From an uncultured Paracoccaceae bacterium (lineage in GTDB: Bacteria > Pseudomonadota > Alphaproteobacteria > Rhodobacterales > Rhodobacteraceae), in NCBI GenBank assembly GCA_947503765.1, contig CANNFA010000002.1, forward strand, positions 430,501 to 494,500: 64,000 nucleotides of DNA, in the 5' to 3' direction. How positions within the stretch are numbered: the stretch's first letter is position 1; every line of letters begins with the position of its first letter. A program made the position numbers and the translations under genes. Under the pieces are notes generated by a model. That model was not told the origin of the DNA, did no database searches, and worked only from the letters and a program-made list of their open reading frames with translations. Below, in pieces: positions 637 to 34,993 of the stretch.

Positions 637-1386
637 ATGGCCGGCCATTCCAAATGGGCCAATATCCAGCACCGCAAGGGTCGTCAGGACGCCGCGCGGT
701 CCAAGCTGTTTTCCAAGCTGTCGAAGGAGATCACCGTCGCCGCCAAGATGGGCGATCCCGATCCCGACAAGAACCCGCGCCTGCGCCTTGCGGTGAAGCA
801 GGCCAAGTCGCAATCCATGCCGAACGACAATATCGACCGGGCGATCAAGAAGGCGACCGGCGGCGATGCCGACGATTACGAGGAAATCCGCTACGAAGGC
901 TACGGCCCTGGCGGCGTCGCGGTGATCGTCGAGGCGATGACCGACAACCGCAACCGCACCGCGTCCACCGTGCGCTCGACCTTCGGCAAGAACGGCGGCA
1001 ACCTGGGCGAGACGGGCTCGGTCGGGTTCATGTTCGAGCGCAAGGGCGAAGTGACCTATCCGGCCAGCGCCGGCGATGCCGACACGGTGATGATGGCCGC
1101 GATCGAGGCGGGGGCCGAGGATGTCGAAAGCTCCGAGGATGGCCACGTCATCTATTGCGCCGATACCGACCTGAACGAGGTGTCGACCGCGCTGGAGGCG
1201 GAGCTTGGCGAGTCGGACACGACCAGCCTGATCTGGAAGCCGACGACCACGGCCGAGCTCGATCTCGAGACCGCGCAGAAGCTGATGCGCCTGATCGAGG
1301 CGCTGGAGGATGACGACGACATCCAGCGGGTCACGTCGAATGTCGAGGTGTCCGACGAGGTGATGGAACAGCTGGGCGCGGCGTGA
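637..1386 (+). CDS. yebC: YebC/PmpR family transcriptional regulator
   Basis: A 249-residue protein beginning with the signature [18 protein letters not shown], followed by the long basic helix and three-domain layout of the YebC/TACO1 family. The length fits the family (240-250). The start at 637 is preferred over an upstream in-frame codon because the family signature begins here and AGAAGAGAG precedes it. Members bind DNA or act on translation of difficult nascent peptides, and in bacteria often sit near ruvC. Here no ruv gene is visible, and the next gene (an exporter) starts 34 bp downstream. The acidic C-terminus (EALEDDDD) is typical of the family. Confidence 0.95.
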
Positions 1387-1420
1387 CGCACCGGGCTGTG
1401 CCGCGCGGCGCACCTGCCGG

Positions 1421-2023
1421 ATGATCGGCGCCGCCGTCGCGGGCTATCTGCTGGGCCTGTCGCTGATCCTGGCGATCGGGGCGCAGAACGCATTCGTTCT
1501 GCGGCAGGGTCTGCGCGGGGCGCATGTCTTTGCCGTCTGCCTGACCTGCGCGCTGTCCGATGCCGTTCTCATCGCGGTCGGTGTGGCCGGGTTCGCTGCG
1601 ATCGAGTTGGCGCTGCCGGGCATCGCGCCCCTGATGCGCTGGGGCGGGGCCGCGTTCCTGCTGGTCTATGGCGCGCTGTCGTTCCACCGGGCCTTCGGCG
1701 CGGCCGAGGCCCTGGAGCCTGCCGCGGCCGGCGCCGGGTCGCTGGGGGCGGCGCTGGCCACCTGCCTTGCGCTGACCTGGCTGAACCCGCATGTCTATCT
1801 CGACACGGTGGTCCTGCTCGGCTCGGTCTCGACCCGCTACGAGGGGCAGAGCCTGGCCTTCGGCGCGGGCGCGGTTGCGGCGTCGTTCAGCTTCTTCTTC
1901 GCGCTCGGCTATGGCGCGCGTCTGCTGCGGCCGGTCTTTGCGCGGCCCGCCGCGTGGCGCCTGCTGGAGGCGGCTGTGGGCGTCACGATGTGGGCGATCG
2001 CGGCCAAGCTTCTGCTGGAATAA
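1421..2023 (+). CDS. LysE/ArgO family amino-acid exporter
   Basis: A 200-residue integral membrane protein with about six hydrophobic segments. The opening GYLLGLSLILAIGAQNAFVLRQGL is typical of the LysE/ArgO branch, where a conserved GAQNAFVLRQ stretch follows the first helix, and a second conserved stretch TWLNPHVYLDT sits in the middle. Members export basic amino acids (lysine, arginine) through the inner membrane. It follows yebC by 34 bp and precedes a DMT exporter by 42 bp on the same strand, so the three may be co-transcribed. Substrate is inferred from the family only. Confidence 0.88.
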   Translation: MIGAAVAGYLLGLSLILAIGAQNAFVLRQGLRGAHVFAVCLTCALSDAVLIAVGVAGFAAIELALPGIAPLMRWGGAAFLLVYGALSFHRAFGAAEALEPAAAGAGSLGAALATCLALTWLNPHVYLDTVVLLGSVSTRYEGQSLAFGAGAVAASFSFFFALGYGARLLRPVFARPAAWRLLEAAVGVTMWAIAAKLLLE

Positions 2024-2065
2024 GCGTACTGGCCCTGCCGCGCGCGCTGGGATAGAGCGGCTTTC

Positions 2066-2971
2066 ATGTCAGACGTCATCCCCCCTTCCGCGCGGCCCCT
2101 GGCCGGTATCTTCTGGATGCTGGTCACGGGCCTGCAATTCGTCGCCGTGACGGCGCTGGTCAAGCATGTCGGCGCCGATGTGCCCGCCCCCGAGGCGGCA
2201 TTCCTGCGCTATGCGCTGGGCATGGTCTTCCTGTTGCCGGTGCTGGGGCCGATCCTGCGCGCGGCGACGCAGCCGGGCATGCTGCGGCTGTTCGGGCTGC
2301 GCGGGGCGGTGCATTCGATCGGCGTGATGCTGTGGTTCTTTGCGATGACGCAGATCCCGCTGGCCGAGGTGACGGCGCTCAACTACGCGTCGCCCGTCTA
2401 TGTCACCATCGGCGCCGCGATCTTCCTTGGCGAGACGCTGGCGCTGCGGCGGCTGACGGCGGTGGGCGTGGCGCTGATCGGGGCGCTGATCATCCTGCGG
2501 CCGGGTGTGCGCGAGCTGTCGCCGGGCCATTACGCGATGCTGGGCACCGGGCTGCTCTTCGCCATGTCCTATCTCGTCGCCAAGGTGCTGAGCGCGCGTG
2601 TCCCGCCCTCGGTCGTGGTGGGATGGCTGTCGCTGGTGGTCACGGTGTTCCTGTTTCCCTTCGCGCTGGCGGTCTGGGTCTGGCCGACCTGGGCGCAGGT
2701 GGGCTGGCTGTTCGCCGTGGCCGGCTTCGCCACGGGCGGGCATTACACGATGACGCTGGCCTTTCGTGCCGCGCCGATGGCGGTGACCCAGCCGGTGACC
2801 TTCCTGCAACTGGTCTGGGCGGTGGCGCTGGGCGCGCTGGTCTTTTCCGAGCCGGTGGATGTCTGGGTGGTGCTGGGCGGCACGCTGATCCTGGGCGCGG
2901 TCAGCTTCATCACCTGGCGCGAAGCGGTGCTGAAACGCCGCGACGTCACGCCGGTCACGGTGACGACCTAG
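2066..2971 (+). CDS. DMT superfamily (EamA) transporter
   Basis: A 301-residue protein with about ten transmembrane segments and two EamA repeats, roughly residues 15-145 and 155-290, each ending in a small-residue-rich helix (GVALIGALIILRPG and GGTLILGAVSFITWREA). The length and repeat layout match drug/metabolite transporters. The substrate cannot be read from sequence. It lies downstream of the LysE-type exporter on the same strand, and the next gene starts 92 bp further on. Confidence 0.85.
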   Translation: MSDVIPPSARPLAGIFWMLVTGLQFVAVTALVKHVGADVPAPEAAFLRYALGMVFLLPVLGPILRAATQPGMLRLFGLRGAVHSIGVMLWFFAMTQIPLAEVTALNYASPVYVTIGAAIFLGETLALRRLTAVGVALIGALIILRPGVRELSPGHYAMLGTGLLFAMSYLVAKVLSARVPPSVVVGWLSLVVTVFLFPFALAVWVWPTWAQVGWLFAVAGFATGGHYTMTLAFRAAPMAVTQPVTFLQLVWAVALGALVFSEPVDVWVVLGGTLILGAVSFITWREAVLKRRDVTPVTVTT

Positions 2972-3063
2972 CCGTGCCGGGCGATCCCGCCCCTTCGCCG
3001 CACGGGGCTGGCACCTGCGCCGCGCCGCCCTTATCTTGACCGGGCAGGGCAGGGAGCGCGGCT

Positions 3064-4491
3064 TTGGGACTGGGCGACATCGCAGACGGGCTTACACGCG
3101 GGGTCGAGGCTGCCGGCAGCACCATCAGCGGCGCCCTGTTCGAGCCGGTGATCCGCATCGGCGTGACCGGGCTGGCGCGGTCGGGCAAGACGGTGTTCAT
3201 CACCTCGCTGGTTGCCAACCTGATGGACCGCGCGCGCATGCCGCAGCTTGCCGCCGCCGCCGAGGGGCGCATCCTGTCGGCCTATCTGCAACCGCAGCCC
3301 GACGATACCGTGCCGCGCTTCGACTATGAAAAACACCTTGCCGATCTGACCGGCCCGACCCCGCGCTGGCCGGACAATACCCGCGCGGTCAGCCAGCTGC
3401 GCCTGTCGCTTCGGGTGCGGCCCGCGGGCCTGCTGGCCGGGATGCAGGGGCCGCGTACCGTGCATCTTGACATCGTGGATTATCCCGGCGAATGGCTGCT
3501 GGATCTCGAACTCATGGACCTGTCCTATGCCGACTGGTCGGCAAAGGTGCTGGAGCGGATCGAGGGGCGCGCCGAGGCGCGCGGCTATCTTGCCGCGCTG
3601 GGCGGTGTGGATGGCATGGCCGCCTTCGACGAAGGCGGCGCGCGGCGCCTGGCCGAGGGGTTCACGGCTTATCTCATGGCGGCGCGGGACGCCGGCTATT
3701 CGGATTGCACACCGGGCCGCTTCCTGCTGCCCGGCGAGATGGAGGGCAGCCCGGCCCTGACCTTCGCCCCGCTCCCGCCGCAGGGACGGACGCGGCGCGG
3801 CTCTCTCGTGCGCGAGATGGCGCGGCGGTTCGAGGCGTACAAGGCGCGGATCGTCAAGCCGTTCTTTCGCACCCATTTTGCCCGGATCGACCGGCAGATC
3901 GTGCTGGTGGACGCGCTGGGCGCGATCCATTCCGGCCCGCCCGCGATGGAGGATCTGCGCCGCGCGCTGGCCGATATCCTCGGCGCGTTCCGGCCGGGGC
4001 GCAATGCCTTCCTGGCGCGGCTGCTGCGTGGCCGCCGGGTCGAGAAGATCCTGTTCGCCGCCACCAAGGCCGACCATCTGCACCACAGCCAGCACGCCCG
4101 CCTGACCGCGATCATGGCGGCGCTGGTGCGCGAGGCAAAGGATCGCGCCGATTTCGCCGGCGCCCGGACCGAGGCGATGGCGATCGCCGCCCTGCGCGCC
4201 ACGGTCGAGGAAACGCTGGACCATGACGGGCGGCCGCTGGATTGCGTGCGCGGCACGCTTCTGAACGACGACGGCACGCGCGGGCGGCAGGCCGCGTTCC
4301 ATCCCGGCGAATTGCCCGAGGATCCGCAGGCCCTGCTGGGTCCGGCGCGCCAGGGGGCGGAGGCATGGCTGGACGGCGATTACCGGGTGATGCGGTTCGC
4401 GCCCGCCGCGCTGCGGCTGAAACCGGGCGAGGGGCCGCCGCATGTCCGGCTGGACAAGGCGGCGCAATTCCTGATCGGGGACCGGCTGTGA
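3064..4491 (+). CDS. ycjX: YcjX-like P-loop NTPase (DUF463)
   Basis: A 475-residue protein read from a TTG codon; GGCAGGGAG lies upstream. A Walker A-type loop, GLARSGKTVF, is near residue 40, and LDIVDYPGEWLLDLELMDL near 140 is the characteristic Walker B-like stretch of the YcjX family. The family is a predicted nucleotide-binding stress protein that often pairs with the membrane protein YcjF. The gene ends in TGATG, sharing one base with the start of the acetyltransferase gene, and two genes on lies the YcjF-like protein, so the three form one translationally coupled operon. Confidence 0.88.
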   Translation: MGLGDIADGLTRGVEAAGSTISGALFEPVIRIGVTGLARSGKTVFITSLVANLMDRARMPQLAAAAEGRILSAYLQPQPDDTVPRFDYEKHLADLTGPTPRWPDNTRAVSQLRLSLRVRPAGLLAGMQGPRTVHLDIVDYPGEWLLDLELMDLSYADWSAKVLERIEGRAEARGYLAALGGVDGMAAFDEGGARRLAEGFTAYLMAARDAGYSDCTPGRFLLPGEMEGSPALTFAPLPPQGRTRRGSLVREMARRFEAYKARIVKPFFRTHFARIDRQIVLVDALGAIHSGPPAMEDLRRALADILGAFRPGRNAFLARLLRGRRVEKILFAATKADHLHHSQHARLTAIMAALVREAKDRADFAGARTEAMAIAALRATVEETLDHDGRPLDCVRGTLLNDDGTRGRQAAFHPGELPEDPQALLGPARQGAEAWLDGDYRVMRFAPAALRLKPGEGPPHVRLDKAAQFLIGDRL

Positions 4492-4940
4492 TGCTCTCGC
4501 CCGCCACCCCGCGCGATGCTGCGCCGCTGGGCCGGATCCTGGGCGACTGGCCGCGGCAGACGCCGTGGATGCCGGTGCTGCACAGCCGCGCCGAGGATCG
4601 CCGTCATGCCGCAGACATGATCGCGCGGTTCGAGGTGATCGTGGCGCGCGGCTGGCGCGGGCCGTGCGGGTTTATCGTGCTGGACGGCGCGGCGGTGCAC
4701 GCGCTTTACCTTGCGCGGCGGGCGCGCGGGCGGGGGATCGGTCGCCTTCTGCTGGACGCGGCCAAGGCGCGTTCGGCCCGGCTGGATCTGTGGTGCTTTC
4801 AGGCGAATACGGGCGCGCGGCGGTTCTATGCGCGCGAGGGCTTTGCCGAGGTCGAATGGTCGGACGGCGCAGGCAACGACGAGGGTCTGCCGGATGTGCG
4901 GCTGACCTGGCGCGCGGCGGCGATGGAGGACGCGGCATGA
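4491..4940 (+). CDS. GNAT family N-acetyltransferase
   Basis: A 149-residue protein with the GNAT core: a beta strand with AVHALYLARRARGRGIGRLLLDAAK, whose R-G-x-G-I-G segment is the acetyl-CoA pyrophosphate loop, then LWCFQANTGARRFYAREGFAEVE, the usual C-terminal strand-helix. The substrate is unknown. It is wedged between ycjX and the ycjF-like gene, overlapping the first by one base (TGATG) and the second by four (ATGA), so co-translation of all three is likely. Confidence 0.88.
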   Translation: MLSPATPRDAAPLGRILGDWPRQTPWMPVLHSRAEDRRHAADMIARFEVIVARGWRGPCGFIVLDGAAVHALYLARRARGRGIGRLLLDAAKARSARLDLWCFQANTGARRFYAREGFAEVEWSDGAGNDEGLPDVRLTWRAAAMEDAA

Positions 4941-5941
4941 CCGATGACAGGCGTGGCCCGGTGCTGATCGAGCTGGACACGGCGCCGCCGCTGTCCCCAG
5001 CCGAGGCGCCGCCGGTCGAGGATGCCCCCGACCTGAGCGATCCGGCGGCGATGCAGAAACTGGCGGCGCTCGCGGCGCGGCGGCCCTCGATGCTGGCGCG
5101 CTGGTTCTGGCGCTTTCTGCTGGCGCTGGTGGGCTTTGCCGCCTCGGTCGCGGCGTGGGATTTCGTCACCCGCCTGATGGACCGCAGCCCGGTGCTGGGG
5201 CTGACCGCGCTGCTGCTGGTCGCGGGCGTCGCGGTGATGCTGCTGGCCATCGCGGTGAAGGAAGCGGCGGCCTATGCGCGGCTGACCCGGCTGGACGCGC
5301 TGCACCGCGCGGCCGATGCGGCGCTGGTCGAGCAGGACCTGGCGGGCGCGCGCGGCGTGGTGGACCGGCTGTGCGCGCTCTATGCGCGGCGCGAGGAGCT
5401 TGACTGGCAGCGCCAGCGGCTGGCCGACCGGCGCGGCGACCTGTTCGACGCCGACGCGCTGCTGGCGCTGGCCGAACGCGAATTGCTGGTGCCGCTGGAC
5501 GATGCCGCGCGGCGCGAGGTGGAGGCCGCGGCGCGGATGGTGGCGACGGTCACCGCACTTGTGCCGCTGGCGCTGTCCGATCTGCTGGCCGCGCTGGGCG
5601 CGAACCTGCGGATGATCCGGCGTGTGGCCGAGATCTACGGCGGCCGGGCCGGCCTGCTGGGCAGCTGGCGGCTGACGCGGACGGTGCTGATGCACCTGGT
5701 GGCGACCGGCGCGGTGGCAGTGGGCGACGACCTGATCGGATCCGTCGCCGGGGGCGGCGTGCTGTCGAAGGTGTCGCGCCGGTTCGGCGAAGGCGTGGTG
5801 AACGGTGCGCTGACCGCGCGCGTCGGCGTCGCCGCGATGGAGGTCTGCCGCCCGCTGCCGTTCCGCGCCGCGCGCCGCCCCTCGGTCACGCGGCTGGTGC
5901 AGCGGGCGCTGACCGGGCTGTTCGGGCGCGCATCCGGCTGA
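4937..5941 (+). CDS. YcjF-like membrane protein (TIGR01620/DUF697)
   Basis: A 334-residue protein: an acidic, proline-rich N-terminus, two hydrophobic helices at about residues 55-75 and 85-110 (FLLALVGFAASVAAWDFV and TALLLVAGVAVMLLAIAV), a helical middle, then a C-terminal DUF697-type region containing ALVPLALSDLLAALGANLRMIRRVAEIYGG. This fits the YcjF family, the usual partner of YcjX. It starts at an ATGA overlap with the GNAT gene and ends the operon. A copy of a short dispersed repeat (5967-6000) lies just downstream. Confidence 0.82.
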   Translation: MTDDRRGPVLIELDTAPPLSPAEAPPVEDAPDLSDPAAMQKLAALAARRPSMLARWFWRFLLALVGFAASVAAWDFVTRLMDRSPVLGLTALLLVAGVAVMLLAIAVKEAAAYARLTRLDALHRAADAALVEQDLAGARGVVDRLCALYARREELDWQRQRLADRRGDLFDADALLALAERELLVPLDDAARREVEAAARMVATVTALVPLALSDLLAALGANLRMIRRVAEIYGGRAGLLGSWRLTRTVLMHLVATGAVAVGDDLIGSVAGGGVLSKVSRRFGEGVVNGALTARVGVAAMEVCRPLPFRAARRPSVTRLVQRALTGLFGRASG

Positions 5942-32079: not shown

Positions 32080-32125
32080 AAAAAGGCCGGGCACCCGGCT
32101 GACGCATTCCGTCCGGTGGGAGGCC
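32079..32125 (-). repeat. Left ~46-bp inverted repeat flanking the transposase-like gene
   Basis: On the plus strand it runs GAAAAAGGCCGGG, six variable bases, CTGACGCATTCCGT, two variable bases, GGTGGGAGGC. The reverse complement of 34947-34993 has the same blocks in the same order; about 38 of 46 positions agree. Together the two bracket a 2.8-kb interval with the 800-codon gene. Whether these are the ends of a mobile element or two related small-RNA genes facing outward is open. Confidence 0.6.
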
Positions 32126-32163
32126 TGCACAAACTGACCTGTCGCGCACCGCGCGGCAGGTCA
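32080..32163 (-). ncRNA. Candidate small RNA (CUCCCACC loop plus terminator)
   Basis: Read on the minus strand the order is: a perfect hairpin TGACCTGCCGCGCGG...CAGGTCA (32163-32135), a short linker with GCCTCCCACC, the stretch ACGGAATGCGTCA, and the hairpin GCCGGGTGCCCGGC followed by CTTTTT (32100-32080), a good terminator. TAAAAT at 32173-32168 could be its -10 box. Unpaired CUCCCA next to a terminator recalls anti-Shine-Dalgarno sRNAs of alphaproteobacteria (AbcR-like), a resemblance in layout only. The terminator could instead simply serve leftward read-through. Confidence 0.35.
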
Positions 32164-32455
32164 TTGTATTTTAGGCGGATTTGCTGAGGACCTGACCAAG
32201 AAAAACAGGACGAAAATCCGAGACTTTTTTCTCGGACCACCGCAGCAGCCGTGGCGGGAGGCAAAACTCCCAAGCCAGGGCAAGTTTCTGCTTCGCTTAG
32301 ATACGATACAGCCAATATTCATCGACGACAAGCTTGACCCTCGCGCGATCGCGGGACTGCGGACGAGTGTCCGTATCAACTTCAATTCATGCGGATTTTC
32401 TGGTCTTTGGTCGAAAAACGACTCAGGGCAGAGCCGCGGAAATCCGAGGTTCTGA
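32138..32455 (+). other. Open frame overlapping the start of the transposase-like gene
   Basis: Frame 2 is open from 32138 to a TGA at 32453-32455 that shares its A with the ATG of the next gene (TGATG). The translated end, containing KIRDFFLGPPQQPWREAKLP and IDDKLDPRAIAGLRTSVRIN, looks protein-like and its codon use resembles the downstream gene. No ATG, GTG or TTG lies in the frame; only CTG (32192) or ATT (32168) could start it. It may be the remnant of a truncated coupled gene, a gene with a rare start, or the first half of a frameshifted product. Confidence 0.35.
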
Positions 32456-34857
32456 TGGCAGGCTTGGCGACTTTCAACTTCAAGCTCTCGCAGCTCTATC
32501 CGGGCGCAGGGGAGCACCGCATCAACACGTGCGCGAACCCGGACTGTTCCAACTTCGGACAGCAGTTGACCGATCGGGCGACCCGTATGTCGAAATGGAA
32601 GGAAAGGCGACCGGACGCTTCTCCGGAGCAGCTACAGCTCGTCGAGATGCACGGACCAGGTGCCTATAAGCTGGCTGGAGCTGACAAGAAACATCGCCGG
32701 GTCTCTCGCGTATTTGCCTACCAGGACAACCCGCATGTGTGGTCCGATCAGCGCACTGTCCGGTGCCTGGGCCAGACCCACGAGGGCAGAATCTGCGACT
32801 CCGGCTTGTCGATCCTGTCGCCGGATCACCTCGAAGGGGAGATCGACAGGCTCCGGAACTCCAATGGCGTTCTCGACGGCCCCTCCTGCGGAGCCTGTGG
32901 CAAACGGTTTCTGGATGATCCGGACGAGTTCGCGCTCGACGGCGTCCACGAGCGATCAAAGGATCACGAAGGAAATCCCCTCCGCCGAAAGAAGACGCCC
33001 TTGTCTCTTCGCGTGCTTCACAAGCCCTGCCGGGGGAAGAAGGGCGCGCGCTTCTCTGTCGCGCTGCCCCATGCCGGGCAAAAGACGACCGCTGACAATC
33101 TTAGGATACTCGGGGCGGTGTTGAACAGCGCAGGGATTGTCGACATACAGCGGATGATCGGGACCGCCGCAACCGGCAAGAAGATCGGCATGTCCCGGAT
33201 CTATGACCGGATCGAATGGCTCGAAGGGGTCTTCCTGGCATACGAGCGCGAGATGCTGCGCAGATGGAAGGACAAGGTTGAACGAAGCGGTGAAGCCGTC
33301 GAGCACCTTCTCAGCCACGACGACATGGTCCTCACGGTGAACTGGGAGACCTCGACAGACCGACGGAACACGCAACTCAACTGCGCGATCACCGCTGACG
33401 CCCGCAGTGGCTATGTCTACCGGCTCGATGTCGACTTCGACCCGCGTGCCACGCCTCTGGACATGTTCAACGCCACCTACCTCGACGAGGCCGGGATGCC
33501 GCAGAACCTCGAACAGCAGTATCCCAGCAGCAAGGTGCGAACGGCCCCGAAGTTCTCCTGGCAACGGCCGACTGGACGGTATCACGAACCGCAGTTCTTC
33601 GCCGCCTGCGTCAACGAGATCAAGGCATTCCAGAGCCGGGCGAAACGCCGAATGCCGAAGAGGGACAAGGCCCAGCGAACCGAGAGGGACGAGGTGATTG
33701 CGCGCACGAACGGCATGATCGCCAACATCCGGATGATCTCGGAGGGGTGGTTCGGCTTTCCAATCGACGAATCCGAAGAGCGTGGCTCGTTCAAGGGCGT
33801 CACGACCAAGGATATCTACACCAAGGGCGCCCATTTCGCGCTCCTGAAGGAGATGCTGCCGCGCGGGTCGATTGTCCTGACCACGGAACAGGAAGCGACC
33901 CTGCCGCCCCTGCTGCCGCATATTTTCGACGAGGAGATCCGGGAGGACAGGTTCGCGTGGCTGGCCATGACATTCAACAAGAAGGCCACGAAGCCGGAAA
34001 AGCTCGGGAAGGTGAAGGAGTATCGCAAGGCGCGGAAACGCTTCCACAACGACGGCATGTATGCCGGGCGCTTCGACCCCGGAACGGATGCGCAGATTGT
34101 GAGCGAGGCGTTCATCGCTGACCGTATGGAGACGGCACTCCGGGGCACCGCCGCAAATTTTCAGATCTCGAACTACCGGTCCGAGGCCTTCCCTTCGCTT
34201 TGGGTCCGGTCCTCGACCCAGGCGAGCGGAGAGATCGACAAGACCGTCGGTTTTCCGATCCTGCCGCGCCACCTGCGCAGGGCGCTGAAGAAGCTCCCAT
34301 TCGACCAGGAAGAGCTGAGCCAGGACCTGCGCGAAGAACTTGCGCCTTGGGTCTATAAGGCGACACTTCAGCCTGTCAGTTCCTTCATGAACTCTCTGCG
34401 CGAAAGGATGAGCGTCGCCGCCCGGGCCGGAAGTGGAGGTGCCCGTGTCGGCGGCTCCTACATCCAGGGCGCGATCTTCAATCCGAGGACCCTGATCGCG
34501 CTCCTGAATATCTACCGCATTCACTACAACTTCTTCGAACCGCGGCCCTACGCATGTCCCTACGAGGAGATCGACGCCCTCATAGATCCTCCGAAGCTGA
34601 CACCGCGCGCCCTGAGGATACCTGGGACGGATGAGTTCGTTGATCTACCGCCACGGGCGCGGCGCTCGCGCGCGCGAATGACGCCGGCCATGCGACACGG
34701 CATGGATGCCTGCACGAAGCGCAAGGACGGCACGCAGGACCCGCCCGACATCTATCGAATGCTATATCGCCCGTGGCTCTATATGGGCACCAAGCTTGGG
34801 GCGCGGTTCGAACGGGCGAGAGGTCAACGCAAAACGGAACCTACCACTTCTTCGTAG
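32455..34857 (+). CDS. Zinc-ribbon / HTH / DDE-transposase-like protein of unknown function
   Basis: An 800-residue protein I do not recognise as a named family. The start at 32455 is preferred (GAGG five bases ahead); an in-frame ATG at 32389 has no ribosome site. Layout: cysteine pairs at 26/31, 104/114, 145/148 and a single 192, suggesting zinc ribbons; a helix-turn-helix-like region at ~212-265 (VDIQRMIGTAATGKKIGMSR); then a region at ~290-700 that reads like an IS-type RNase-H fold, with strand MVLTVNWE, NCAITADARSGYVYRLDVDF, strand IVLTTEQE, VSSFMNSLRERMSVAARA and the typical end RIHYNFFEPRPY. At the places where Asp, Asp and Glu are expected I see Asn-296, Glu-478 and Ser near 642. Codon use is less GC3-rich than the neighbours. 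It stands alone between inverted repeats. Confidence 0.6.
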   Translation: MAGLATFNFKLSQLYPGAGEHRINTCANPDCSNFGQQLTDRATRMSKWKERRPDASPEQLQLVEMHGPGAYKLAGADKKHRRVSRVFAYQDNPHVWSDQRTVRCLGQTHEGRICDSGLSILSPDHLEGEIDRLRNSNGVLDGPSCGACGKRFLDDPDEFALDGVHERSKDHEGNPLRRKKTPLSLRVLHKPCRGKKGARFSVALPHAGQKTTADNLRILGAVLNSAGIVDIQRMIGTAATGKKIGMSRIYDRIEWLEGVFLAYEREMLRRWKDKVERSGEAVEHLLSHDDMVLTVNWETSTDRRNTQLNCAITADARSGYVYRLDVDFDPRATPLDMFNATYLDEAGMPQNLEQQYPSSKVRTAPKFSWQRPTGRYHEPQFFAACVNEIKAFQSRAKRRMPKRDKAQRTERDEVIARTNGMIANIRMISEGWFGFPIDESEERGSFKGVTTKDIYTKGAHFALLKEMLPRGSIVLTTEQEATLPPLLPHIFDEEIREDRFAWLAMTFNKKATKPEKLGKVKEYRKARKRFHNDGMYAGRFDPGTDAQIVSEAFIADRMETALRGTAANFQISNYRSEAFPSLWVRSSTQASGEIDKTVGFPILPRHLRRALKKLPFDQEELSQDLREELAPWVYKATLQPVSSFMNSLRERMSVAARAGSGGARVGGSYIQGAIFNPRTLIALLNIYRIHYNFFEPRPYACPYEEIDALIDPPKLTPRALRIPGTDEFVDLPPRARRSRARMTPAMRHGMDACTKRKDGTQDPPDIYRMLYRPWLYMGTKLGARFERARGQRKTEPTTSS

Positions 34858-34890
34858 ATCGGTCGCGCACGATGGGGAAACCGGCAAGAT

Positions 34891-34919
34891 AAGGCCGCGC
34901 CCTTACGAGGCGCGGCCTT
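34891..34919 (+). terminator. Hairpin after the transposase-like gene
   Basis: An 11-bp perfect stem AAGGCCGCGCC / GGCGCGGCCTT with loop CTTACGA, followed by TGGTAGTTT. It lies 34 bp after the stop codon and is the probable terminator. It could instead be the 5' hairpin of a small RNA running to about 34993, the mirror of the one at 32080-32163. Confidence 0.65.
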
Positions 34920-34946
34920 TGGTAGTTTACTCTGGAGCTTCGGATC

Positions 34947-34993
34947 AGCCTCCCACCACACGGAATGCGTCAGCACCCGGCCCGGCCTTTTCC
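34947..34993 (+). repeat. Right ~46-bp inverted repeat flanking the transposase-like gene
   Basis: It reads AGCCTCCCACCACACGGAAT then GCGTCAGCACCCGGCCCGGCC and TTTTCC, the reverse complement of the left copy (32079-32125) with about eight differences. Its terminal stem is weaker than in the left copy because CCGGG/CCCGG pairing is disturbed. It ends 20 bp before the OmpA-type gene's stop codon. Confidence 0.6.

Follow-up and report, generated by a model that had tools for sequence, protein, structure and literature searches.

What is the protein of 800 amino acids encoded at positions 32455..34857 (+ strand) of the window, the whole stretch of 64,000 nucleotides analysed here: the transposase of a mobile element, or a transposase-derived protein kept by its host for another job? 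The open reading frame is real, as the first-pass annotation had proposed from the sequence alone; an upstream extension to an ATG at 32389 is possible, and the start shared with its relatives is at 32455. Its left neighbours are ATP-synthase genes and its right neighbour is an OmpA-like gene, all recognised by eye from their translations, and the G+C content is ~0.61-0.63 across the gene versus mostly 0.64-0.71 outside it. The frame is the sole gene seen in the window copy of a 2,873 bp element (32100..34972, + strand), in agreement with the earlier description of a single gene adjoining the ATP synthase operon. The bounds of this element are based on the edges of DNA similarity to its near copies (onset at ~32089-32098 and end at 34972; L004, L006), on terminal inverted repeats and on a target duplication. 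The 25-bp inverted repeats (TGACGCATTCCGTCCGGTGGGAGGC), the left one at 32100..32124 (+ strand) and the right one at 34948..34972 (- strand), match at 23/25 positions, and the element is bordered by exact copies of the 9-bp duplication GCACCCGGC (32091..32099 and 34973..34981). The syntenic locus without the gene, which the first-pass annotation had proposed to look for, was found in the congener G534 (L092 1438-1474), where the element is absent and the 9 bp occur in a single copy; this empty site was identified from its OmpA-like flank together with a 29-base match in the left flank. Judged by the inverted repeats, the exact 9-bp duplication and the empty site in the congener, the window element is thus a transposon. 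The earlier label of a transposase-like protein is likewise borne out by the repeats, the duplication, the empty site and the copies at unrelated sites, that is, by element structure and not by fold. That annotation had mentioned neither the inverted repeats and the duplicated target nor the insertion into a terminator that is described below.

A single copy of the element was found in the window's own 3.98-Mb genome, and not the multiple identical copies that the first-pass annotation associated with an ordinary active insertion sequence. Four near copies, with 88-95% protein identity, occur in Loktanella atrilutea (L003), a Rhodobacteraceae MAG (L004), Jannaschia seosinensis (L005) and an uncultured Jannaschia (L006). 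A search with the repeat pattern matched 11/394 genomes of the family, the window's own among them, against two for a reversed control pattern, and yielded L063 (3,567 bp), L064 (3,916 bp), L067 (2,881 bp; transposase intact, with 66% identity to the window protein) and L066 (one end only, at a contig end), as well as single-end matches such as L065, L069, L070 and L071. Both ends are present in seven copies of this clade (window, L004, L005, L006, L063, L064 and L067), and the L003 stretch yielded no right end. Exact 9-bp duplications flank the copies in the window, L005, L006, L063 and L067; L064 retains 8/9 bases and L004 has none. The close copies stand at unrelated sites, and the gene is under purifying selection (dN/dS 0.08-0.15 across 15 pairs of six copies). 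The window protein matched 2/385 genomes of the class, namely its own and one distant match, and a profile search placed family members in 18/248 Rhodobacteraceae genomes (L010-L038). Since many of the latter are split or contain stop codons, decayed copies of the family seem to be common in Rhodobacteraceae.

Relatives at ~19-25% identity, annotated as 'hypothetical protein' or 'insertion element protein', are found on plasmids of Pseudomonas, Acidovorax, Polaromonas, Marinobacter, Rhizobium, Enterococcus, Staphylococcus and others. The homology extends over most of the protein length, with the window query finding L008 (E 5e-7) and L008 in turn finding the Enterococcus protein (E 2e-37). Thirteen relatives were scanned for repeats and duplications along with two controls, both of which were found. 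Repeats matching at 20/20 positions with 9-10-bp duplications were observed in L008, L041, L042 (where the duplication fits 10 bases) and L046, and 20/20 repeats with no duplication in L039; nothing convincing was seen in L002, L007, L016, L017, L018, L040, L043 and L044, the flanks of several of these being short. Scans of a viral collection gave two family loci, L045 and L046. The latter is the dfrG transposon Tn7491, and its repeat and 9-bp duplication match those printed in PMC10763498. According to the same paper, the dfrG element was first described as Tn6198, and one genome holds a second copy of Tn7491 between the convergent genes csbB and saeS. Ninety-six plasmid records carry the Tn7491 left end, and among eight hand-picked across hosts, seven show both ends and a duplication (9 bp in six, 10 bp in L086), with no right end in the stretch fetched for L088. 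It is proposed here that the window element and Tn7491 belong to one unnamed transposon family, and the window element shows its features: a homologous transposase, inverted repeats with a 9-bp duplication, and terminator-centred insertion.

The window element interrupts the loop of a terminator hairpin located between the ATP-synthase genes and the OmpA-like gene. The left half of this hairpin (32080..32099) comprises an A tract, the left arm and the loop, its last 9 bp being the duplication, and is supported by flank folding and the L092 empty site; the right half (34973..34991), supported by flank folding, comprises the duplication, the right arm and a T tract. When joined, the flanks read AAAAGGCCGGGC ACCCG GCCCGGCCTTTT, with a 12-bp stem and A and T tracts, and fold better than mononucleotide shuffles (z -4.4 and -4.8). 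The hairpin is kept at the orthologous place in the congeners L093 and L094 and in L096 of the same family, the loops differing or, in L096, the stem carrying paired changes, and no such hairpin was seen at the orthologous place viewed in the congener L095. Under a loop rule requiring the duplication centre to fall within +/-2 of the loop and an A or T tract to be present, all five clade copies with exact duplications are centred on a loop with a stem of at least 4 bp, versus 0.6-3.3% of background positions, and four of the five retain this at stems of at least 5 or at least 6 bp (background at the latter 0-1.3%); this background pools coding and intergenic DNA, so that the contrast with intergenic DNA alone is overstated. 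A second hairpin rule is satisfied by 4/5 clade sites (P 1.6e-10), these rules having been drafted after the first sites had been seen. L067 agrees with the loosest rule only, and its sequence does not fold better than shuffled versions (z -0.8 and 0.2); L064, with its 8/9-base duplication, has no hairpin and fails the rules. The eleven sites of distant relatives are those of L008, L041, L042 and L046 and of the seven fetched Tn7491 copies, so that 8/11 represent Tn7491. Here 5/11 satisfy the strict rule (P 3.0e-8), 6/11 with one mismatch allowed (P 5.4e-8) and 7/11 with G-T pairs allowed (P 1.1e-5, with a background of up to 16%). The insertion site of L008 is a perfect terminator, and L046 fails the scripted rules, its minus strand folding as GCGCATC GAATA GGTGTGC TTTTT (z -3.5). 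L041, L042 and L090 fail every hairpin rule. Because the window site and 4/5 clade sites, but just 5/11 distant sites, satisfy the strict rule, insertion into terminator loops is, on these counts, a preference rather than a rule. Nothing on these elements inserting into terminators was found in the open-access literature at title level, which is weak evidence of absence.

Some further sites bear mention in their own right. L004 (5646-8518) is without a target duplication, yet its flanks resemble the left and right arms of a single terminator. The same holds, by eye, for L108 (~2303-4202), a relative of the Asp type in the L005 host, which has 20/20 repeats and no duplication and is flanked by GGGGGC and GCCCCCTTTTT arms. 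At the non-terminator sites of L041 (2930-4972) and L042 (2883-4768), the duplications GCTTGATCT and GCTGATCCCC look alike, and they may reflect another target preference.

No match above cut-off was obtained for the window protein in Pfam, nor any in NCBIfam or PADLOC, nor a convincing one among the PHROGs, and 17 family members gave no Pfam match to IS1595 (PF12762) at E 1 and none to the IS1 catalytic family. The cysteine pairs noted in the first-pass annotation were confirmed, with C26, C31, C114, C145 and C192 kept in 17/17 family sequences and C104 in at least 90%. Over the zinc-ribbon and helix-turn-helix part, the wider family matched IS1 InsA in hhalign (probability 95-96%), and the window clade alone gave no such match (0.1%). 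For the catalytic part, hhalign gave 0.1% against InsB and 0.2-0.6% against IS1595, and AlphaFold2 predictions from seven-row alignments were of low confidence (mean pLDDT 35.5 and 36.2). For this protein, an RNase-H fold and a DDE catalytic triad are putative. In an alignment of 17 proteins, Asp289, Asp329 and the acids at 478 and 480 are kept throughout. The residue that had been taken for the first triad position, Asn296, belongs to a V-N-W motif; the aligned acid is Asp289 (codon 33319..33321, + strand), seven residues earlier and acidic in 17/17 relatives. Glu478 (codon 33886..33888, + strand) had been correctly placed at the second position, being Glu in the six rows of the window clade and Asp in the other 11. 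The Ser assigned to the third position is Ser642 (P-V-S-S-F; codon 34378..34380, + strand); this position is Ser in 6/6 clade rows, versus Asp in 9/10 and Asn in 1/10 (Tn7491) of the covered distant rows, in which L045 is not included. Ser is also found in the clade fragments L013, L031, L033, L035 and L066, and Ala in the clade fragment L109. The proposed catalytic role of position 642 draws on a by-eye resemblance to the IS1595 motif I-E-x-F-W. Glu593 (codon 34231..34233, + strand; Glu in 15/16, Lys in Tn7491) is a candidate third acid with a putative role, and position 620, acidic in 15/16, is a further candidate. Two other candidates for the third acid were rejected, namely the LERP-motif Glu, which is replaced by Ala in P0001, L016 and L017, and Glu515 (acidic in just 12/17). 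The claim that the catalytic triad has been lost is not supported, given the acids kept at 289 and 478 in 17/17 sequences, the purifying selection and the exact duplications around close copies that occupy different terminators. The other suggestion made at first pass, that of a new family of transposases whose active-site residues are altered, could still be correct: there is no Pfam match above cut-off and no NCBIfam match, and in the clade Asp is replaced by Glu at 478 and by Ser at 642.

A relative of ~480-490 amino acids in the Vibrionaceae (L043, L044 and L100; Photobacterium and Salinivibrio) has lost both the Asp at 289 and the Asp at 478. The Salinivibrio copy is annotated as 'lactate dehydrogenase' and is located between deoD and hdfR in both Salinivibrio records viewed, and Vibrio and Photobacterium matches to this relative share 53-57% identity. 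This suggests that the Vibrionaceae protein, unlike that of the window, derives from a transposase and has long been kept for another job. An E. coli 'cytoplasmic protein' gene beside nhaA (L101 1492-2736), with 25.7% identity to the Vibrionaceae protein over 81% of its length, is possibly another transposase-derived gene.

In some copies, cargo genes occupy the stretch from the transposase gene to the right repeat. These include a Schlafen/AlbA_2 gene in L005 (Pfam E 5e-18) and dfrG in Tn7491. L063, whose transposase is broken, carries a gene that resembles the end of NsnA (E 1.3e-16), together with a HEPN gene seemingly split in two frames. The cargo of L064 comprises a CBASS cyclase, an E2 protein and an HNH-SAVED effector (PADLOC E 2e-125, 3e-91 and 4e-147); this complete-looking CBASS set lies between inverted repeats (1069-4984), and the transposase gene is reduced to its end. 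There is no room for cargo in the window, L004, L006 and L067 copies. Hairpins also occur just inside the element ends, as read from the printed copies with no shuffle control. Inside the left end, a hairpin followed by TTGTATTTTA (32135..32163, + strand; 7/7 copies) is a possible terminator against read-through from outside, and inside the right end a hairpin with A and T ends (34891..34920; 6/6 copies) may be a two-way terminator.

We consider it likely, from the features of the sequences compared, that the gene encodes the transposase of a self-contained transposon, which inserts preferentially at the centre of intrinsic (Rho-independent) terminators. The possibility raised at first pass that it is a domesticated DNA-binding protein, kept by the host for another job, would fit a single copy in the genome and purifying selection on the gene. 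It is highly improbable, however, given that inverted repeats and an exact duplication bound the gene, that the same place is empty in a congener and that the distribution is patchy (2/385 class genomes by protein and ends in 11/394 family genomes); the position and distribution of the element contradict it. An ordinary transposon with little target choice could also produce such a pattern, if insertions into genes are lost to selection and terminators abound in intergenic DNA. The sites of L041, L042, L064 and L090 outside hairpins accord with this, as do the small samples (five clade and 11 distant sites, with Tn7491 contributing eight of the latter), but the duplication, rather than just lying close to a terminator, is centred on its loop in 4/5 clade and 5/11 distant sites under the strict rule, against a background, pooled from genes and intergenic DNA, of a few per cent at most, and we regard this explanation as unlikely.

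The protein might alternatively be catalytically dead and its element moved in trans by another transposase. This would account for Ser (Ala in L109) at position 642 versus Asp in most relatives, and additional members of the family, including the Asp-type L108, are present in the hosts G778 and G779. Family-profile matches number five in G778 and six in G779, with one partial match each in G575 and G701, and draft genomes can hide copies. By contrast, G000, G638, G761 and G777 have one family match each, which is the element's own, so that movement in trans is possible in some hosts while no helper is visible in others. The constraint on the whole gene, the acids kept at 289 and 478, and the spread of Tn7491 with Asn at 642 (PMC10763498) also stand against it, and we hold it to be quite unlikely.

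Under the preferred reading, that of a transposase with a preference for terminators, the protein would bind the element ends through its zinc-ribbon/HTH part, select the twofold-symmetric arrangement of A tract, arm, loop, arm and T tract, and join the ends at positions staggered by 9 bp about the dyad centre. Insertion in the middle of a terminator would spare genes, and the hairpins inside the element ends could stand in for the terminator that is interrupted. A broader reading, which we put forward tentatively and think more doubtful than probable, is that the family reads the twofold hairpin of terminators, whether as a DNA palindrome, an extruded cruciform or terminating transcription, and that its active site is atypical (Asp-Glu-Ser/Ala for the Rhodobacterales clade and Asp-Asp-Asn for Tn7491); its elements would bring substitute terminators in their own ends and transfer modules for anti-phage defence from genome to genome. 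If true, cutting at the dyad centre of terminators, from Enterococcus to marine Rhodobacteraceae, would represent a testable example of target choice guided by structure or by transcription, and would touch on the central question of how mobile DNA picks harmless landing sites. Terminator targeting could also be part of the reason why the dfrG transposon has become established on such a large number of plasmids. It would in addition offer a simple criterion by which to locate hidden relatives, of which some have defence genes.

Insertion at a defined non-coding feature is also known for REP-targeting insertion sequences, whose transposases and targets differ from those of the window family. 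IS1 resembles this family in its zinc-ribbon/HTH part, where InsA is homologous to that of the wider family, and in the length of its target duplication, but its InsB has no detectable likeness to the catalytic part, and it employs InsA plus InsB in place of one protein of 600-800 amino acids. Mutator-like elements insert upstream of promoters (PMC3942029), and so likewise have a defined non-coding target, but with other transposases and other targets; the word 'terminator' is absent from that paper. With IS1595, the V-D-x-F-F...R of the relatives shares a by-eye resemblance to the I-E-x-F-W...R motif (PMC12561309), but the hhalign probability is 0.2-0.6% and the window-family protein is much larger; an IS1595-family member generates 8-bp duplications (PMC12561309), compared to 9 in the window element. 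The named element included in the proposed family is Tn7491, a 3.3-kb dfrG transposon of Gram-positive bacteria that is also printed as Tn4791 (PMC10763498), in a paper that contains neither the word 'terminator' nor 'transposase'. It differs from the window element in its repeat sequence, its 650-amino acid protein, Asp at 478, Asn at 642 and its resistance cargo, and shares with it a homologous transposase (~20-25% identity), terminal inverted repeats, a 9-bp duplication, the cargo position between the transposase gene and the right end and, in the present analysis, several copies centred on terminators.
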